64,000 nucleotides of DNA from an uncultured Spirochaetaceae bacterium. Lineage in GTDB: Bacteria; Spirochaetota; Spirochaetia; Sphaerochaetales; Sphaerochaetaceae. Below the pieces are notes generated by a model. That model ran no database searches. It was not told the DNA's origin and saw only the letters and a list, made by a program, of their open reading frames with translations. Positions 1 to 7,143 of the stretch are shown piece after piece (position 1 is the first letter of the stretch; each line of letters opens with the position of its first letter). The stretch covers positions 1-64,000 of the forward strand of contig CALXKS010000008.1 of assembly GCA_944389015.1 (NCBI GenBank). The letters run 5' to 3'. The position numbers and the translations under genes were made by a program.

Positions 1-61
1 ATTCCTGCCTCTTCTTCGCTGGAATCCTCTGCTTCCGGAGGGACTCTACTCTTTCTTCCAT
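1..61 (-). CDS. partial CDS, 5' end of an unidentified gene
   Basis: Only the first 20 codons are inside the window; the gene continues beyond position 1. Reading the minus strand from the ATG at 61 gives a very basic, hydrophilic start (MEERVESLRKQRIPAKKRQE). A strong Shine-Dalgarno sequence (AGGAGG) lies 5-10 nt upstream. It is on the same strand as and downstream of the lipoprotein gene that ends at 155, so it may be the next gene of that unit. Nothing can be said about function. Confidence 0.5.
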   Translation of the reverse strand, partial: MEERVESLRKQRIPAKKRQE

Positions 62-80
62 AGTCTTCCTCCTGGAATGG

Positions 81-106
81 GGCCCGGCCGGCATTATGAC
101 CGGGCC
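81..106 (-). terminator. GC-rich hairpin between lipoprotein gene and next gene
   Basis: A perfect 7-bp stem (81-87 with 100-106, GGCCCGG/CCGGGCC) encloses a 12-nt loop. It lies downstream of the lipoprotein stop codon on the minus strand. There is no T-run after it, so it may be an attenuating or mRNA-stabilising hairpin rather than a complete intrinsic terminator. Confidence 0.4.
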
Positions 107-154
107 TGATCAGCCTGGATCTCTCAACCCAGACCCCTCACGAAACTGGATCCC

Positions 155-2743
155 TTAGTTATCAGCAGTTACTGTAACTGTGATATCAGAAGTCGGTACG
201 GTCTTGTCTGGCGATGTGTTATCCAGATACGTCTCATTCACATATGTGATTGTGAATACAACTTTATCATTTGCAGCAAGCTCTCTCGAACCAGTCCATG
301 GTGTTGAAAGAGAATCTCCACTCTTCGTAACAGCTGCAGTCATGCTAAGAATCTTAGTATTAGGGCCTGCCCAATAAGATGTATAGGATTCTGGATTGAC
401 TTCAAAGTCACTAAAATTATATGTATCTGCAGGGATAGTGTTGTTTGAATTATTAAGGACTACATCTTTTCCGTCAATCAAAGTCTTAATTGAGAAGCCT
501 GCAGCAACTGGTTCTACATGCTCAAGTCCCTGGAATGCGGCTGTTGTAACATAGAGTACTGCATCGGAATCACCTTCCTTGCTTGTGTATGTGAAGGAAA
601 GCCTTACGGTATTGCTACCTGGGACAACGACCTTGTCAGTACCCTGCGCAAGAGCAATTTTAGGCTGATCTGAAGTTGCAACTGTTCCTTTTGCTTCATA
701 ACCAGAGATTACATATGCATTTGCAGTAGTTGGAGCAGTAATTGGCTTTCCAACAAGTTTATCAAATGCAGTACCAATAGTTGCGGAGAGATTTGTTACA
801 TCAATATATCCACTTCCTACAGGAATACCATTAGTCTTAACACCCATTTCCACAAATCCAGTGTTGTTGAGTGTTGTGTAGGCATTGTAACTCTTTGCCT
901 CAGCTCCGACTGTGACAGTCTTGTTTGCAACCTCTACGCCATCAACAACGAGTACCCAGTTGTTTGCTGCATATGCAGGATCAATCACGTTGCCGTCCGC
1001 TGCATCATATGTTACTGCAGTCCATGTGATCGGGGAATCAAGCATCGGAGTCTTTCCATCATTGTCCTTTGTATATGTATACTTAGGCGTTGCTGTGATA
1101 GCCTTGACCTCAGATGCCTCTGTATCAACAGAGAAGAATCCTACAACTTCTGTACCAGTGATAGAAACCTTCACAAAGAGCTCATCTGCATTGACATCGT
1201 AGTATGTATCTTCACCTACTTCGATAGTCTCGATGTTCTTATTATCCTTGGAAACCTTATCATCCTCATCTGCAGAGAAGTAATATGCTGTGGTATCAAG
1301 TTCAAACTTTGTTGTGGACTCTGATGTCAGAACCTGTGTTGTACCATCGTTCATCTGCACTGTGACAGAAGCAACAGCACCAGTTGCAGGCTTCAGAGCA
1401 GTAAGGTTAGTGTCTGTGTAATATGCTCTGTTAGGAAGATCAAGATCATCCTTGAATGTTACAGCAGTGATTTCCTCTACGACAGGTGTACCCTTTTCAA
1501 CGAGGCAAGCTGCCAGATCACCGGAATTCCTGATACCTCTGTATGTTGCAACGATATAGAGACTATCACCAACAGTCTCAGGAACTGTGATTGCAACGGA
1601 TGCATCTGTTACTTCAGTTGCGGAGAATGCGAATTCCACACCCTCTGTGATGAACTGTATGTCGTTGTTGATCTCAACAGTCACAACATAGTCAGAAGCA
1701 TCTGGAGCAGCAAGCTTTGACTCCTTGACGAAGCTGACACCTGTGAGAGGAGCAACTGTGAGTGTAGGAGCCTTTACTGTAGCAGTGCCAGCGCCAGCGC
1801 CATTTGTTGTGATACCACTGAAATCGCCATAGGTATAAGCAGCCCTGACCGATGTCATCTCTGTGAAATCATCGGTTGTGATTGTCTCATAATTAGCAGC
1901 ATCTACATACTCAAGCTCAAATCCAGGATCAGATGTGAGAGTATCATACTCTCCAGCCTCATAATCCTTTCCTGCATACTGGACCCTTACCACAAGGTCG
2001 TCGAAGCTAGGTGCTGGAACGCCATCATAGATCCATGCTGGAATCTCTGTGCCGTTCTTGAAGGACACAGCAACAATCTTCTCAATCACAGGAAGCTCTG
2101 CAGCCTCGAATGTAGCTGTGAATGCGAACTCGCCTGTTACAGGAGCAACTTCCGCTGTATCTCCCTGTCCAACAACAGGCTTTACTGTTGCAACAGCATC
2201 AACGCTTGTCTGGGAAGCATTAGGTCCGATGTTGTTGTTTGCATATACAACATCTGTCACCTTGAACTCATCTGAGCCAAGAACCATTGTCTTCTCTGCG
2301 TTCTTGCTGTCAAGGTATGTTGCTGTGACTGTGAGATCGGATGCCTTTGGAACAGCCTTGTTCACATAGGATGAAGGTCCTGTCACGGAAACGCTCTTGA
2401 TCATATATGCAGAGAGAGATCCCTCGGCATAGACAGGATCGCCATATACATCGTATCCGATGAGTGCCTCAAGGCGGTCTCCGATATCGGCTGTACCGTC
2501 CTGATCGACAAGCCTTACGCTCACTGCGGAATCAGCTGGAGCGATAGTGCCGTTATCATAGGTAATCTCTACAGAGAACTTCTGAGGGTCAAATGCCTGC
2601 CCGTCAAGGAAGTCTCCTGTCTGGATTATCTTTCCGCTCTTAACGCTCTGCGGGAGTCCTGTGATGGCTACTGAATCAGAGCAGCCAGCGAGGATCGCAA
2701 CAACGATGAGAGCAGCTGTCAAAAAGATTGATGTCTTTTTCAT
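155..2743 (-). CDS. large Ig-like-repeat surface lipoprotein
   Basis: An 862-residue exported protein. It starts with a basic n-region, a hydrophobic core and a lipobox ending in L-A-G-C at Cys21, so it should be a lipidated membrane-anchored protein. The rest is Thr/Val/Ala-rich, beta-strand-like and almost Cys-free. Internal repeats are visible: segments near residues 220 and 425 both begin P-V-(I/V)-E-x-I-x-A-V-(S/T)-F-K and continue into similar strand patterns, which suggests stacked bacterial Ig-like (BIG) domains of about 100 residues. No catalytic motif is seen. A surface or adhesin-like role is inferred only from this architecture. The start has AGGAGAGG upstream. The promoter contains a G10 tract between its -35 and -10 boxes (see separate entries), so expression may be phase variable. 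Confidence 0.85.
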   Translation of the reverse strand: MKKTSIFLTAALIVVAILAGCSDSVAITGLPQSVKSGKIIQTGDFLDGQAFDPQKFSVEITYDNGTIAPADSAVSVRLVDQDGTADIGDRLEALIGYDVYGDPVYAEGSLSAYMIKSVSVTGPSSYVNKAVPKASDLTVTATYLDSKNAEKTMVLGSDEFKVTDVVYANNNIGPNASQTSVDAVATVKPVVGQGDTAEVAPVTGEFAFTATFEAAELPVIEKIVAVSFKNGTEIPAWIYDGVPAPSFDDLVVRVQYAGKDYEAGEYDTLTSDPGFELEYVDAANYETITTDDFTEMTSVRAAYTYGDFSGITTNGAGAGTATVKAPTLTVAPLTGVSFVKESKLAAPDASDYVVTVEINNDIQFITEGVEFAFSATEVTDASVAITVPETVGDSLYIVATYRGIRNSGDLAACLVEKGTPVVEEITAVTFKDDLDLPNRAYYTDTNLTALKPATGAVASVTVQMNDGTTQVLTSESTTKFELDTTAYYFSADEDDKVSKDNKNIETIEVGEDTYYDVNADELFVKVSITGTEVVGFFSVDTEASEVKAITATPKYTYTKDNDGKTPMLDSPITWTAVTYDAADGNVIDPAYAANNWVLVVDGVEVANKTVTVGAEAKSYNAYTTLNNTGFVEMGVKTNGIPVGSGYIDVTNLSATIGTAFDKLVGKPITAPTTANAYVISGYEAKGTVATSDQPKIALAQGTDKVVVPGSNTVRLSFTYTSKEGDSDAVLYVTTAAFQGLEHVEPVAAGFSIKTLIDGKDVVLNNSNNTIPADTYNFSDFEVNPESYTSYWAGPNTKILSMTAAVTKSGDSLSTPWTGSRELAANDKVVFTITYVNETYLDNTSPDKTVPTSDITVTVTADN

Positions 2744-2779: not shown

Positions 2780-2811
2780 AGACTACCCCCCCCCCGGTAC
2801 ATTTTTGTCAA
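2780..2811 (-). promoter_or_regulatory. promoter of lipoprotein gene with G10 tract in the spacer
   Basis: Reading the minus strand: a perfect -35 TTGACA (2806-2811), a 20-nt spacer that includes ten consecutive G (2786-2795), then a -10-like TAGTCT (2780-2785). The ATG follows 36 nt downstream, with its own Shine-Dalgarno sequence. A 20-nt spacer is longer than the 17-nt optimum, which seven Gs would give. Slippage in the tract would therefore directly retune promoter strength. Confidence 0.6.
2786..2795. repeat. homopolymer C10/G10 tract
   Basis: Ten consecutive C on the plus strand, the longest homopolymer of G or C noticed in the window. It lies outside coding sequence, 43-52 nt upstream of the lipoprotein start and inside its promoter spacer. 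Such tracts are known hot spots for slipped-strand mispairing. Confidence 0.9.
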
Positions 2812-2914
2812 GTGATTTTTAGGATTGATTGGATTTTTTTGAATTCACTATCAAATCAAGAGATCTCTGGCACTGCTGCTATGCATAATTACAATTATTG
2901 TTAATATGTTTTTA

Positions 2915-2943
2915 TTGACGCTTTAGTTGTAAAGTGTTAAATA
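2915..2943 (+). promoter_or_regulatory. promoter of iron-type alcohol dehydrogenase, very short leader
   Basis: -35 TTGACG at 2915-2920, then either TTAAAT (2937-2942, 16-nt spacer) or TAAATA (2938-2943, 17-nt spacer) as -10. The ATG at 2954 is only 10-11 nt from the -10 and has no Shine-Dalgarno sequence, so the transcript would have a leader of a few bases at most. Confidence 0.5.
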
Positions 2944-2953
2944 CATTGTTGCT

Positions 2954-4174
2954 ATGAACATGCTGAAGAAAATATACTGCAGGACATTCCAGACTGCATT
3001 CAGAATCGCAATACCTCTCCTTCCATACAGGAAGCCGGAGATTCTTTCATCGATGGATGAGCTCACAGCTCTTCTGAACAGGAAGGGAATCAGATCCGTT
3101 CTTCTTGTCACTGACAGTTCAATCAGGGGACTTGGCATCACAAAGCCTCTTGAGGATTCACTGAAGGAATGCGGCATCAAGGCAGCAGTATATGACAAGA
3201 CCGTTGCAAATCCGACAACAGACAATGTAGAGGAAGCAAGAAGTCTTTATCTCAGCGAAAGCTGCGAGGCGATAATCGGCTTCGGCGGAGGATCATCGAT
3301 CGACGCCGCAAAGGCAGTAGGCGCAAGGATCGCATATCCAAGGAAGCCTCTTTCGAAGATGGAAGGAATTCTCAAGGTCCTGAAGAGAATCCCCCTTCTT
3401 ATCGCTGTTCCGACAACAGCAGGAACAGGAAGCGAGACAACGCTGGCTTCTGTTATCGTTGACAGCAGGACAAGGCATAAGTACCCGATAAACAGCTTCC
3501 CGCTCATACCGCGCTATGCGGTTCTGGATCCTGAGAATACAAAGAGCCTTCCTGCATCTATCACAGCAACGACAGGGCTTGATGCGCTGACACATGCTGT
3601 GGAGGCATTCATCGGAAGGTCAACGACAAAGGAGACAAGGGCGGAGGCAATCGAAGCGGTCTCACTTATATTCAGATACCTTCCAAGAGCTTACAGGAAT
3701 GGCTCTGATATGGAAGCAAGAAGAGGAATGCTCCGCGCGGCATATCTTGCAGGAGCGGCATTCACAAAGTCCTATGTAGGCTATGTCCATGCAGTTGCGC
3801 ACTCTCTTGGAGGCAAATACAACACCCCGCACGGGCTTGCAAATGCTGTACTCCTTCCATATGTTCTTGAGTTCTATGGGGAAAGCGCATGGAAGAAGCT
3901 TGCAATCCTTGCAGATGCTGCAGGCATCAAAGGGGAAAGCAATAAGGACAAGGCAGAATCATTCATCATCGCAATCCGGAAGATGGAGAAGGATATGAAG
4001 ATCCCATCAGAGCTTCCTGAGATAAAAGATGAGGATATTGAAGAACTCTCCGAATATGCAGCTAAGGAAGCCAATCCTCTCTATCCTGTTCCGATGCTGA
4101 TGGACAAGGATGAGCTCAGGATATTCTACAAAATGGTTGAGGCAAAGAGCCGGAAGAGAGGCGAGACAGCCTGA
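2954..4174 (+). CDS. iron-containing alcohol dehydrogenase
   Basis: A 406-residue group III (iron-type) alcohol dehydrogenase, a cytoplasmic NAD(P)-dependent enzyme that would interconvert alcohols and aldehydes in fermentation. Family hallmarks are clear: the nucleotide-binding G-F-G-G-G-S-S-I-D-A-A-K near residue 115, P-T-T-A-G-T-G-S-E-T near residue 155, and the metal-ligand region with D-A-L-T-H-A-V-E-A near residue 216 and the later His-rich H-A-V-A-H-S-L-G-G and P-H-G-L-A-N. Length is normal. The first ATG (2954) follows a promoter almost directly; the ATG two codons later is the alternative. A strong terminator follows at 4191. The substrate cannot be told from sequence; 1,3-propanediol, butanol and lactaldehyde enzymes share these motifs. 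Confidence 0.9.
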   Translation: MNMLKKIYCRTFQTAFRIAIPLLPYRKPEILSSMDELTALLNRKGIRSVLLVTDSSIRGLGITKPLEDSLKECGIKAAVYDKTVANPTTDNVEEARSLYLSESCEAIIGFGGGSSIDAAKAVGARIAYPRKPLSKMEGILKVLKRIPLLIAVPTTAGTGSETTLASVIVDSRTRHKYPINSFPLIPRYAVLDPENTKSLPASITATTGLDALTHAVEAFIGRSTTKETRAEAIEAVSLIFRYLPRAYRNGSDMEARRGMLRAAYLAGAAFTKSYVGYVHAVAHSLGGKYNTPHGLANAVLLPYVLEFYGESAWKKLAILADAAGIKGESNKDKAESFIIAIRKMEKDMKIPSELPEIKDEDIEELSEYAAKEANPLYPVPMLMDKDELRIFYKMVEAKSRKRGETA

Positions 4175-4190
4175 TTCCCATGCTCCGCAT

Positions 4191-4220
4191 GCAAGCCGCT
4201 TGATGCGGCTTGTTTCTTTT
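4191..4220 (+). terminator. intrinsic terminator after alcohol dehydrogenase
   Basis: An 8-bp stem CAAGCCGC/GCGGCTTG (4192-4199 with 4205-4212), a 5-nt loop, then TTTCTTTT. Confidence 0.85.
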
Positions 4221-4236
4221 ATCTGTGATTGCATGC

Positions 4237-4242
4237 TAGAAT
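4237..4242 (+). promoter_or_regulatory. extended -10 (TGC-TAGAAT), leaderless start for 4250
   Basis: TGC directly followed by TAGAAT, seven nt before the ATG at 4250. No Shine-Dalgarno sequence is present. It lies just after the preceding terminator, so it should drive a new unit. Confidence 0.55.
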
Positions 4243-4249
4243 CATTGCT

Positions 4250-4783
4250 ATGGATAAAAGACTTATCAAGGCTGCGACTGTCATTATCATCGTGATTCTC
4301 ATAGCGGCAGTGTATTTCATAAAGAATGAAGGAAGCATTTCCCTTATACAGGGAACGATTGATGAGAATGCAGGCATGCTCCAGAGCGGAAGGGAAAGCC
4401 TTGAGATACATGGGTTCTCGCCAGAGATGGTCACATCATCGGAAATCCCTATGATAATCGTCATCGGAGAGGACTACTGCCAGCCATGTCTGAGGATGAT
4501 GCCGGATCTTGAGGAGCTGCACCGCACCCATGATGATATTTCCATAAGGTATATCGATCTTGGAGAGAACGAGGACGCTGCGGCATTCTTCCCGATACGC
4601 GTAACACCAACGATTGCAATATACGAGAAGAATGGAATGCCTTTCGAGCCCGGAGAAGATTCGGGAATCTCCTATCTGCTCTACTCTGACAGGAATACAG
4701 GCGAGCATGTGATGACAGTCCATGAGGGCTACCTTACACGAAGCGAGCTCGAGAGCCTCATAGAGGAAGTCATAAGTGATTGA
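4250..4783 (+). CDS. membrane-anchored thioredoxin-like protein
   Basis: A 177-residue protein with an N-terminal membrane anchor (residues 8-25) and no lipobox, then a thioredoxin fold with the redox motif C-Q-P-C (Cys77/Cys80) and the cis-proline region V-T-P-T near residue 120. It should act on the outer face of the inner membrane as a thiol-disulfide reductant. The gene overlaps by 8 bp with a CcdA-type electron carrier, the usual partner that feeds electrons to such proteins. The ATG at 4250 was chosen because a -10 box ends 7 nt before it; an in-frame TTG at 4229 would add 7 residues that do not fit the leader. The target protein is unknown, and no cytochrome c genes are seen nearby. 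Confidence 0.8.
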   Translation: MDKRLIKAATVIIIVILIAAVYFIKNEGSISLIQGTIDENAGMLQSGRESLEIHGFSPEMVTSSEIPMIIVIGEDYCQPCLRMMPDLEELHRTHDDISIRYIDLGENEDAAAFFPIRVTPTIAIYEKNGMPFEPGEDSGISYLLYSDRNTGEHVMTVHEGYLTRSELESLIEEVISD

Positions 4784-5462
4784 AAGTATTCTCAGGAATA
4801 TGGCCGATATGATATCCCAGGGAGGGATATCCGCACCGCTTATTGCGTTCATAGCCGGCATCATCACCGCAGTCACCCCGTGCTCTCTATCGCAGCTCCC
4901 GCTCGTATTAGCATACGTCGGAGGGGAGGAATCACCATCCAAGGCCTTCCGTCTATCAGCAGTCTATTCGGTGGGGCTCGCAGTCACATTCACGGCATTC
5001 GGAGCAGCGGCAGCACTCCTTGGAAATCTCATTGGGAATGCTGGAAAGCTCTGGTATATGATCCTTGGGGCACTTATGGTGCTTATGTCCCTGCAGATAC
5101 TCGGCATATTCAATCCAATACCCTCAACATACCTTTCTGCTGCGAATAAAAGAAGGGGATACACAGGTGCGCTCATTGCAGGAATCCTCGGAGGAGTGTT
5201 CTCCTCCCCTTGCTCCACTCCTGTCATAATCGCACTACTGACAGTAATCGCAGCAGAAGGAACATTGGCAAGGGGAATCCTGCTGATGCTTCTCTATGCG
5301 CTGGGATCATCGGCTCTTGCGCTCGTTCTCGGCTTCTCACCTGCCCTCATCAGGAAGCTCGGGAGATCTGAGAAGATGCATAGTGTATCCAGAGTTCTGA
5401 ATGCGGTGCTCGGCATCGCTGTACTGGCCCTTGGACTATATATGCTCTATCTTGGGTTCTGA
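4776..5462 (+). CDS. CcdA-like transmembrane thiol-electron carrier
   Basis: A 228-residue polytopic membrane protein of the CcdA/DsbD-transmembrane family. Six hydrophobic helices are visible. The first conserved Cys lies in T-P-C-S near residue 35 and the second in S-S-P-C-S-T-P near residue 147; these two Cys pass electrons from cytoplasmic thioredoxin to extracytoplasmic thioredoxin-like proteins. It starts with GTG overlapping the upstream thioredoxin-like gene by 8 bp and has GAGGAAG as Shine-Dalgarno, so the two are translationally coupled. The 3' end overlaps the convergent gene by 16 bp. Confidence 0.85.
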   Translation: MIESILRNMADMISQGGISAPLIAFIAGIITAVTPCSLSQLPLVLAYVGGEESPSKAFRLSAVYSVGLAVTFTAFGAAAALLGNLIGNAGKLWYMILGALMVLMSLQILGIFNPIPSTYLSAANKRRGYTGALIAGILGGVFSSPCSTPVIIALLTVIAAEGTLARGILLMLLYALGSSALALVLGFSPALIRKLGRSEKMHSVSRVLNAVLGIAVLALGLYMLYLGF

Positions 5463-5908
5463 ATCTCCTCAGGCTCTGCAATCTCATCAAAAGTATCCAG
5501 GATGATGGAAAGGAGGAATTCAATCATGCTATCCTCATTATCCGATCCATGGTACTCACCAAGACTTTCCTTGCTTCCTTCTCCATACATGCTTATATGC
5601 ACAGGTCCATAGAAGCTCTTCACTCCATAATCCGCCTGAAGCTCTTTAAGAGACATTCCCATCAACGGAGCCATAGCCCTGAGATCATCGCGCTCAAGCC
5701 CGGCCTCAAAAAGATACCTCCCCTCTATATGGGCAGTCGCTGCCAGCGGAACATCAATCACAGAGGACTCCGATGAGAGCTCCGGCCTGCGATGGATCCT
5801 TATCTCTATATCACCAGCCTTATAGCGCTTTATCACAGCAGAATCAGGCCTTACGATTGTCTGGAATGCATTCATATCAATTTCATCGGAATTGCGATCA
5901 AGTATCAT
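5447..5908 (-). CDS. hypothetical protein, 153 aa
   Basis: A soluble, acidic 153-residue protein with no signal peptide, membrane segment or recognised motif. The middle (E-S-S-V-I-D-V-P-L-A-A-T-A-H-I-E-G-R) has a beta-strand-rich look, and the C-terminus is rich in Glu and Ile. It starts 4 bp inside the end of the YihY-family gene (ATGA-type overlap), so it is the last gene of the three-gene unit 8056-5447. No function is proposed. Confidence 0.65.
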   Translation of the reverse strand: MILDRNSDEIDMNAFQTIVRPDSAVIKRYKAGDIEIRIHRRPELSSESSVIDVPLAATAHIEGRYLFEAGLERDDLRAMAPLMGMSLKELQADYGVKSFYGPVHISMYGEGSKESLGEYHGSDNEDSMIEFLLSIILDTFDEIAEPEEIQNPR

Positions 5909-7143
5909 AGTCTCTCCAGAAGGTTCTCTATAGTAATACTGCCGGTATCACGGGTTCCCTTATCAAGAAAATCCATCGCTACGGCATCTCCCAGCGTCTC
6001 AACATCATCGCTCGTGACGCTCCCGCAGACAACAACAATCACATCCTTAACGGTGATCTGGTCAAGCGGACGTGCAGGAACGAAGGAGGAACGCCGTGTG
6101 TTAACGGCCATCACCATCTTCGCATCTTCGAAATCGGCAAGATAGGACACGAGAGTAGCGGAAGGAACACCAAGGCGCCGCATGAGTTCCTTCAATGACA
6201 TCGCTCCATCACCAGATCTGTATTTCTGGGCAATCAGGAGAAGCATGTTAACAGCTTCTGCCACCTGCATCACAGGAGGCCGTGTATGTCCGATAACGAT
6301 AGTCTTATCAGGTCTGAACTGATGGATATAGACCATCTCCCCGGAGAAGAAGATTATGAACCAGCAGACATAAAGATACAGGAGAGCGATGAAGACAGAG
6401 GCAAGCGAACCATAGATAACGGAGTATGAGACCATCATCCCTGTTATTCCCTGGAGGATGCTTGTCGCTATGAGAAGAGCCACAAGGCCTGTCGTTGCCC
6501 CGATGGATGAGGATGATGTCCTGATCTTTGCTGCAGGAACTGCTTTATACAACAGGAAAAGAAACATCCAGATCATCAGCGAAGATGAAATAAAACGTCC
6601 TAAGCTTCCTGGGGGGCCGTATCCGATTGCAATGCGGGAGAAAGTGTTCCTTACCATTGTCTGGAGGGCAAATGATGCCACTATCAGGAATGCAAGGACT
6701 ATGAGGAATGTCAGGAATGAGGAGAACCTCCTCATCGCTCCTGTGCTTGGCCTGGTGTGGAATATCTGATTGATCGATACATAGATCTTATCGACAAGAA
6801 GGATTCCTGTGATGATGAATGACACAAGGCCGACGACGCCAAGAGACATCGCGTTGGAGGAAAAGAGCGAGATATAGTCAGCAAGCTGATGACCTGTATC
6901 GGAACCGAATACATCGACAAGGAACTCCGTTATGAAATCCATGAATGGCTGTAGAACACCGAAGACAGAAAGGAATGCGACAAGAAATGTCAGACATGGA
7001 ATAAGGGCTATCAATGTAGAATAGACCATGCCGGATGATATCATCATCACATTGTCCCGCCCCATGCCACGGAATGCTGTAAGCGCAACCTTGAAGTAGT
7101 CTGTCCACCACTGGGCAAAACGCTGGAAGATATTACTCTTCAT
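5905..7143 (-). CDS. YihY/virulence-factor BrkB family membrane protein
   Basis: A 412-residue YihY (formerly 'ribonuclease BN') family protein. About six transmembrane helices occupy residues 25-275, followed by a soluble C-terminal part. That part contains a winged-helix-like segment (S-L-K-E-L-M-R-R-L-G-V-P-S-A-T-L-V-S-Y-L near residue 320). Such fusions are common in this family; the molecular role is unsettled. The start at 7143 was chosen because GGAGG lies 4 nt upstream; it overlaps the end of the hydrolase gene by 11 bp, which implies coupling. Confidence 0.8.
   Translation of the reverse strand: MKSNIFQRFAQWWTDYFKVALTAFRGMGRDNVMMISSGMVYSTLIALIPCLTFLVAFLSVFGVLQPFMDFITEFLVDVFGSDTGHQLADYISLFSSNAMSLGVVGLVSFIITGILLVDKIYVSINQIFHTRPSTGAMRRFSSFLTFLIVLAFLIVASFALQTMVRNTFSRIAIGYGPPGSLGRFISSSLMIWMFLFLLYKAVPAAKIRTSSSSIGATTGLVALLIATSILQGITGMMVSYSVIYGSLASVFIALLYLYVCWFIIFFSGEMVYIHQFRPDKTIVIGHTRPPVMQVAEAVNMLLLIAQKYRSGDGAMSLKELMRRLGVPSATLVSYLADFEDAKMVMAVNTRRSSFVPARPLDQITVKDVIVVVCGSVTSDDVETLGDAVAMDFLDKGTRDTGSITIENLLERL

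Follow-up and report, generated by a model that had tools for sequence, protein, structure and literature searches.

A tract of ten guanines lies between the -35 and -10 boxes of the promoter of a large lipoprotein gene in an uncultured Spirochaetaceae bacterium, within a stretch of 64,000 nucleotides (nt) referred to here as the window (assembly GCA_944389015.1, contig CALXKS010000008.1, positions 1 to 64,000). The same architecture recurs across this genus of gut-type spirochaetes with a fixed spacing and with lipoprotein genes as its target class, and the length of the spacer differs between orthologous promoters. From the sequence it is highly probable that changes of spacing in these promoters switch or tune the lipoprotein repertoire, as slipped-strand phase variation or as a rheostat. 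A preliminary description of this DNA had proposed phase variation through a poly-G spacer. That proposal is strengthened by comparison, which contributes the genus-wide recurrence, the fixed spacing, the lipoprotein targets and the orthologue length differences, while slippage within a population and its effect on transcription are what we infer from them.

Layout and recurrence of the poly-G promoters

The window promoter is read on the minus strand, where a -35 box, TTGACA (2806-2811), is followed by AAAATGTACC (2796-2805), the G10 tract GGGGGGGGGG (2786-2795), a -10 box, TAGTCT (2780-2785), and a leader containing the ribosome binding site AAGGAGAGGA (2752-2761), which leads to the ATG at 2743-2741. 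The tract occupies part of a 20-nt spacer (2786-2805) and abuts the -10 box, which is of the TANNNT class. The -35 box, the non-G part of the spacer and the ribosome binding site come from direct sequence reading, and the -35 box additionally belongs to a genus-wide pattern with no control matches. TTGACA, a 20-nt spacer with ten Gs and TAGTCT upstream of an 862-residue lipoprotein had been described beforehand, and this reading proved exact. Promoter boxes throughout were recognised from sequence and conservation rather than from mapped transcription starts.

This tract is the only run of at least eight Gs in the window, and a first-order expectation gives about 0.03 runs of exactly ten Gs per window. 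The layout TTGACA-N7-15-G7+-TA appeared in none of 300 windows simulated with a first-order Markov model, and a chance origin was ruled out by this simulation together with reversed-pattern controls. An alternative -10 box further downstream, TAGAAA, was rejected, being 31 nt from TTGACA and unconserved across sites.

The 2.03-Mb draft genome that contains the window has 15 G runs of at least eight, nine of which form promoter spacers of the TTGACA-G-TA type. Eight of these are strict (TTGACA-N7/N10/N11-G8..11-TA), and the ninth has a degraded -10 box that has lost its T (G10-AGTCTT). Besides the window tract, seven of the nine spacer tracts (G8-G11) stand upstream of paralogues of the window lipoprotein, and one more paralogue carries an interrupted tract, GGGGGAGGG. 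An N7+G9 spacer upstream of a dehydrogenase-like non-lipoprotein (G000:C10:23583-23606) serves the one clear non-envelope target in the genome. Two further runs are poly-C spacers of two other lipoproteins (TTGACA-C10-GTGCCTGAAG-TAGAAT and TTGACT-A-C10-...). Another two, G9 and G8, lie in frame near the N-terminus of lipoproteins L076 (contig C67) and L071 (C7), where the gain or loss of one G is predicted to truncate the protein, a translational switch. The remaining two occupy other upstream regions with no clear -35 box, before a lipoprotein (C30) and before a secreted protein (C81) whose likeness to pilus chaperones was judged by eye.

Across the genus, TTGACAN{7,15}G7TA matched 220 sites in 33 of 48 genomes, with up to 13 strict copies in one genome and no reversed-pattern matches. 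The pattern is present in 44 of the 139 family genomes, distributed over three of 22 genera (no control matches), and 68 of the 393 genomes sampled across the phylum contain its G8 version, compared with two control matches. A mirror architecture with poly-C spacers occurs in six genomes, again with no control matches. A single inherited repeat as the origin of these sites was ruled out by the unrelated downstream lipoproteins, by the differing prefixes (N7 and N10 classes) and by the poly-C spacers. In public collections the relatives are labelled as uncultured Spirochaetaceae or Spirochaetales metagenome genomes. The matches listed by a scan of public records, in which the spacing was fixed beforehand and which is a lead rather than a census, include Treponema zioleckii, T. 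berlinense and, from the gut, several bins of Clostridia and Bacilli. In another spirochaete genus, one genome (G454) has nearly all-G spacers, such as TTGACA-C-G15-TA, at no fewer than eight sites. Loci L401, L403 and L412 contain two G6-G7 blocks per promoter (TTGACA-A-G6-N-G6-TA) with a CCCTCC motif upstream, and may represent a stable form of this promoter type.

Spacer length and its variation

The distance from TTGACA to TA is narrowly distributed. In a search that allowed 10-41 nt and took in G8 and G9 tracts only, 139 of the 150 sites among the matches listed had 16-20 nt, with a mode of 19. A TANNNT box directly follows the tract, 129 of 134 sites having T at its sixth position. The lengths of spacers with long G runs cluster around 19 nt, most commonly as 10+G9. 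Where the longest run reaches only 5-7 Gs, interrupted tracts included, 13 of the 15 spacers counted measured 18 or 19 nt. Long tracts and short or interrupted tracts showed no significant difference in spacer variance (Levene p 0.48). A TTGACA/TATAAT scan of 620 kb for ordinary promoter spacing gave too few matches to reveal an optimum. With short-run and interrupted spacers mostly 18-19 nt long and a genus mode of 19, this range is more likely than 17 nt to be the active spacing, and we place it there with moderate confidence. The earlier suggestion that loss of three Gs would bring the window promoter to an ideal 17 nt is accordingly not borne out. The active state of the window promoter is probably G8-G9, the present 20 nt probably being weaker.

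Orthologous promoters of sister species, matched by their flanks, differed in spacer length in all seven pairs compared. The pairs are other promoters of the family, the sister species G009 lacking a counterpart of the window promoter. Between G000 and G009, the tracts are G11 versus G9 and G10 versus G8. Between G013 and G018, they are G9 versus G10, ACCGA+G8 versus ACCA+G10, ACT+G10 versus ACC+G9, and ACT+G9 versus ACCCC+G10; the fifth pair has an equal G9 and a prefix one nucleotide shorter. The flanks of the compared pairs, mostly about 900 bp, contain 0-14 insertion or deletion events. This comparison shows that length changes fast over the timescale of species.

Lipoprotein targets and the neighbouring HTH gene

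About 60 tract-bearing promoters from other species were followed to their downstream genes, and the great majority precede a lipobox protein, with a TA-to-start distance of 25-42 nt at most loci; for comparison, one of 53 genes in the window has a lipobox. Because many of the lipoproteins behind tract promoters are unrelated to each other, a common promoter architecture is kept on different genes. The window lipoprotein itself (155-2743, minus strand; 862 residues) belongs to a divergent paralogue family with 24-30% identity and has the lipobox LAGC at residues 18-21. No Pfam domain was matched in it. Its AlphaFold model is a chain of all-beta modules (mean predicted local distance difference test score, pLDDT, 70; predicted template modelling score, pTM, 0.31), with weak structural matches, S-layer and Ig-like domains among them (best Z 6.4). 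The Ig-like repeats assigned to it in the preliminary description are only moderately supported: the all-beta modules and the structural matches favour them, and the Pfam result does not. An envelope lipoprotein is what the lipobox and the modular beta model point to, and the same two features suggest that it may be exposed at the surface.

At some loci the lipoprotein cassette appears to diverge or to be replaced faster than its surroundings, since flanks, promoter and signal peptide are shared but the mature coding region is not. In L396 and L276, the flanks are 95% identical and the signal peptide and the downstream helix-turn-helix (HTH) gene match, while the lipoproteins share 117 of 355 residues; the same pattern was found at the DNA level in L368/L275 and L395/L268. 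L358/L266 is a counterexample, with proteins identical at 613 of 617 residues. The alcohol dehydrogenase region of the window (2881-6852) is syntenic with L302 (G009:C90), at 83.5% over 4 kb, and the window lipoprotein is absent from this syntenic locus in the sister species G009; its gene was gained or lost at the site. In G009 at C32:6499-6598, a relic promoter, GGGTGGGGG, stands without a lipoprotein. In one paralogue of the own genome (L070, G000:C6), the lipoprotein stops at 597 residues though coding-like sequence goes on, which may reflect a frameshift, decay or an assembly error.

Behind the window lipoprotein lies the start of a small HTH gene (MEERVESLRKQRIPAKKRQE..., 1-61, minus strand), cut by the contig end at position 1. 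Copies were also located at L066:6740-6934, L068:3491-3685 and L276:1403-1606, and those behind the paralogues are complete. The protein, 65-70 residues long behind the lipoprotein paralogues of this genome and 65-77 across the genus, is conserved at 60-92% identity to the first sequence, compared with 24-30% for the lipoproteins. Its gene occurs in 30 of 48 genus genomes, in up to 16 copies; outside the genus, one weak match was found in the family, and on plasmids there was no match. The HTH and poly-G numbers per genome are correlated (Spearman 0.88, a value whose significance overstates independence among related genomes), with 29 genomes carrying both, and four and one carrying one only. 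At 32 of 68 evaluable poly-G loci the HTH gene is directly behind the first gene. Conversely, where the gene upstream of an HTH gene is visible, in most cases it encodes a lipoprotein and has a TTGAC-type spacer rich in G. We rejected the idea that poly-G promoters need the HTH protein as a partner, because genus g2 has such promoters without it and 36 of the 68 evaluable loci have no adjacent HTH gene.

Pfam HTH_23 (PF13384) was matched by one member at 24.8 bits against a cut-off of 24.6, and a divergent member scored 17.1, below the cut-off; the score for HTH_Tnp_1 was weak (E 0.11). The AlphaFold model is helical and HTH-like (core pLDDT about 92), has the three helices of the Homeodomain-like class, and weakly resembles paired-domain and transposase HTHs. 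The intergenic stretch from the lipoprotein stop to the HTH gene (74-154, minus strand) is predicted to form a hairpin (minimum free energy -37.1 kcal/mol, z -3.0). Of 28 such stretches tested (z averaging -4.7 against mononucleotide shuffles), nearly all are predicted to form a strong hairpin, though with differing sequence. The hairpin may keep read-through into the HTH gene low or shield the lipoprotein mRNA. It is conceivable, though rather unlikely, that the poly-G promoter and the HTH gene work together as a single device, in which a switched-on lipoprotein would co-produce the DNA-binding HTH protein at a level set by the intergenic hairpin; the HTH protein would then act on other copies of the family and turn random slippage into ordered, for example one-at-a-time, expression of variable lipoproteins in a spirochaete that is not a pathogen.

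Mechanism, rival explanations and related systems

In the favoured mechanism, the G10 tract would give a sigma70-type promoter a spacer of variable length, with strand slippage during replication adding or removing Gs. Each gain or loss would alter the distance between TTGACA and TAGTCT, and hence promoter strength, so that the lipoprotein, plus the HTH protein where its gene is present, would be expressed at levels differing from cell to cell. The window promoter would be one of an independently switching set governing much of the lipoprotein repertoire of the genus. Several observations weigh against this account. TAGTCT matches TATAAT at three of six positions, and the -10 boxes are weak. 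Some loci of the same class have G runs that are short or interrupted (G6, GGGGTGGGGG) and should be less prone to slippage, so that the G-rich spacer may have an additional role. Furthermore, five of the seven orthologous pairs come from one close species pair, G013/G018, and most assemblies are drafts in which a G-run count may err by one.

The G run could instead be a fixed promoter part: as a G-rich spacer it would influence DNA shape or be bound by a regulator, for which the HTH protein is a candidate, and its length would be under slow neutral drift. The loci with short or interrupted runs keep the 18-19 nt spacing, the run touches the -10 box, and the HTH count follows the poly-G count across the genus, all of which would fit such a part. 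We regard it as improbable, however, because uninterrupted runs of 8-12 predominate although they are rare by chance, and because length differs in every orthologous pair. It would also leave aside the coding G tracts of two further lipoproteins, which have no promoter role and in which a one-G change truncates the product, and the poly-G spacers of the sister genus g2, which exist without the HTH gene. Miscalled tract lengths, with purely technical variation, were also considered, since homopolymers of G are prone to error, the assemblies are drafts that include many metagenome bins, and many tracts lie close to contig ends. Such an artefact is very improbable, given that the tracts occupy conserved promoter positions in independent assemblies of 33 species, that two-G differences and base changes adjacent to the tract (ACC/ACT/ACCCC) are no simple miscalls, and that named records, such as those of Treponema zioleckii and T. 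berlinense, have the same layout.

By its sequence, the window family fits promoter-spacer homopolymer phase variation of the kind described for TP0126 and porA. In the gene for TP0126, an OmpW-like protein of T. pallidum, transcription is set by the length of a poly-G tract that separates -35 from -10, and 17 nt is the optimum (PMC7864442). The likeness lies in a poly-G tract inside the promoter spacer of a gene for a spirochaete surface-type protein. For TP0126, in contrast, one gene for an outer membrane protein was reported, with 17 nt as its optimum, whereas the lipoprotein promoters here are many per genome, centre on 18-19 nt and, in about half of the evaluable cases, stand before an HTH gene. 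The T. pallidum genes tprE/G/J and tprL share a poly-G near the promoter, with eight or fewer Gs permissive for tprE/G/J (PMC7864442); here the tract is wholly within the spacer. In Neisseria meningitidis, porA has a poly-G in its promoter spacer and graded expression (as cited in PMC7864442); it shares the spacer homopolymer and differs in being one locus, in an unrelated phylum, encoding a porin rather than a lipoprotein. Additionally, G-tract slippage has been demonstrated by maximum depth sequencing in a commensal, at two loci and in coding sequence rather than in promoter spacers as here (PMC9187656).

The mechanism is known from TP0126 and porA, and what is new is the scale: here the probable switch extends over a whole genus, whereas the known cases are mainly a small number of genes in pathogens. 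The promoter set offers a natural series of spacer lengths for working out the spacing rule, and existing metagenome reads are suited to a test of switching. A 2025 review of phase variation left open why genomes with many such loci seem confined to pathogens, or whether this is an effect of sampling (PMC11868660). The presence of tract promoters in two thirds of the species of this genus bears on that question.
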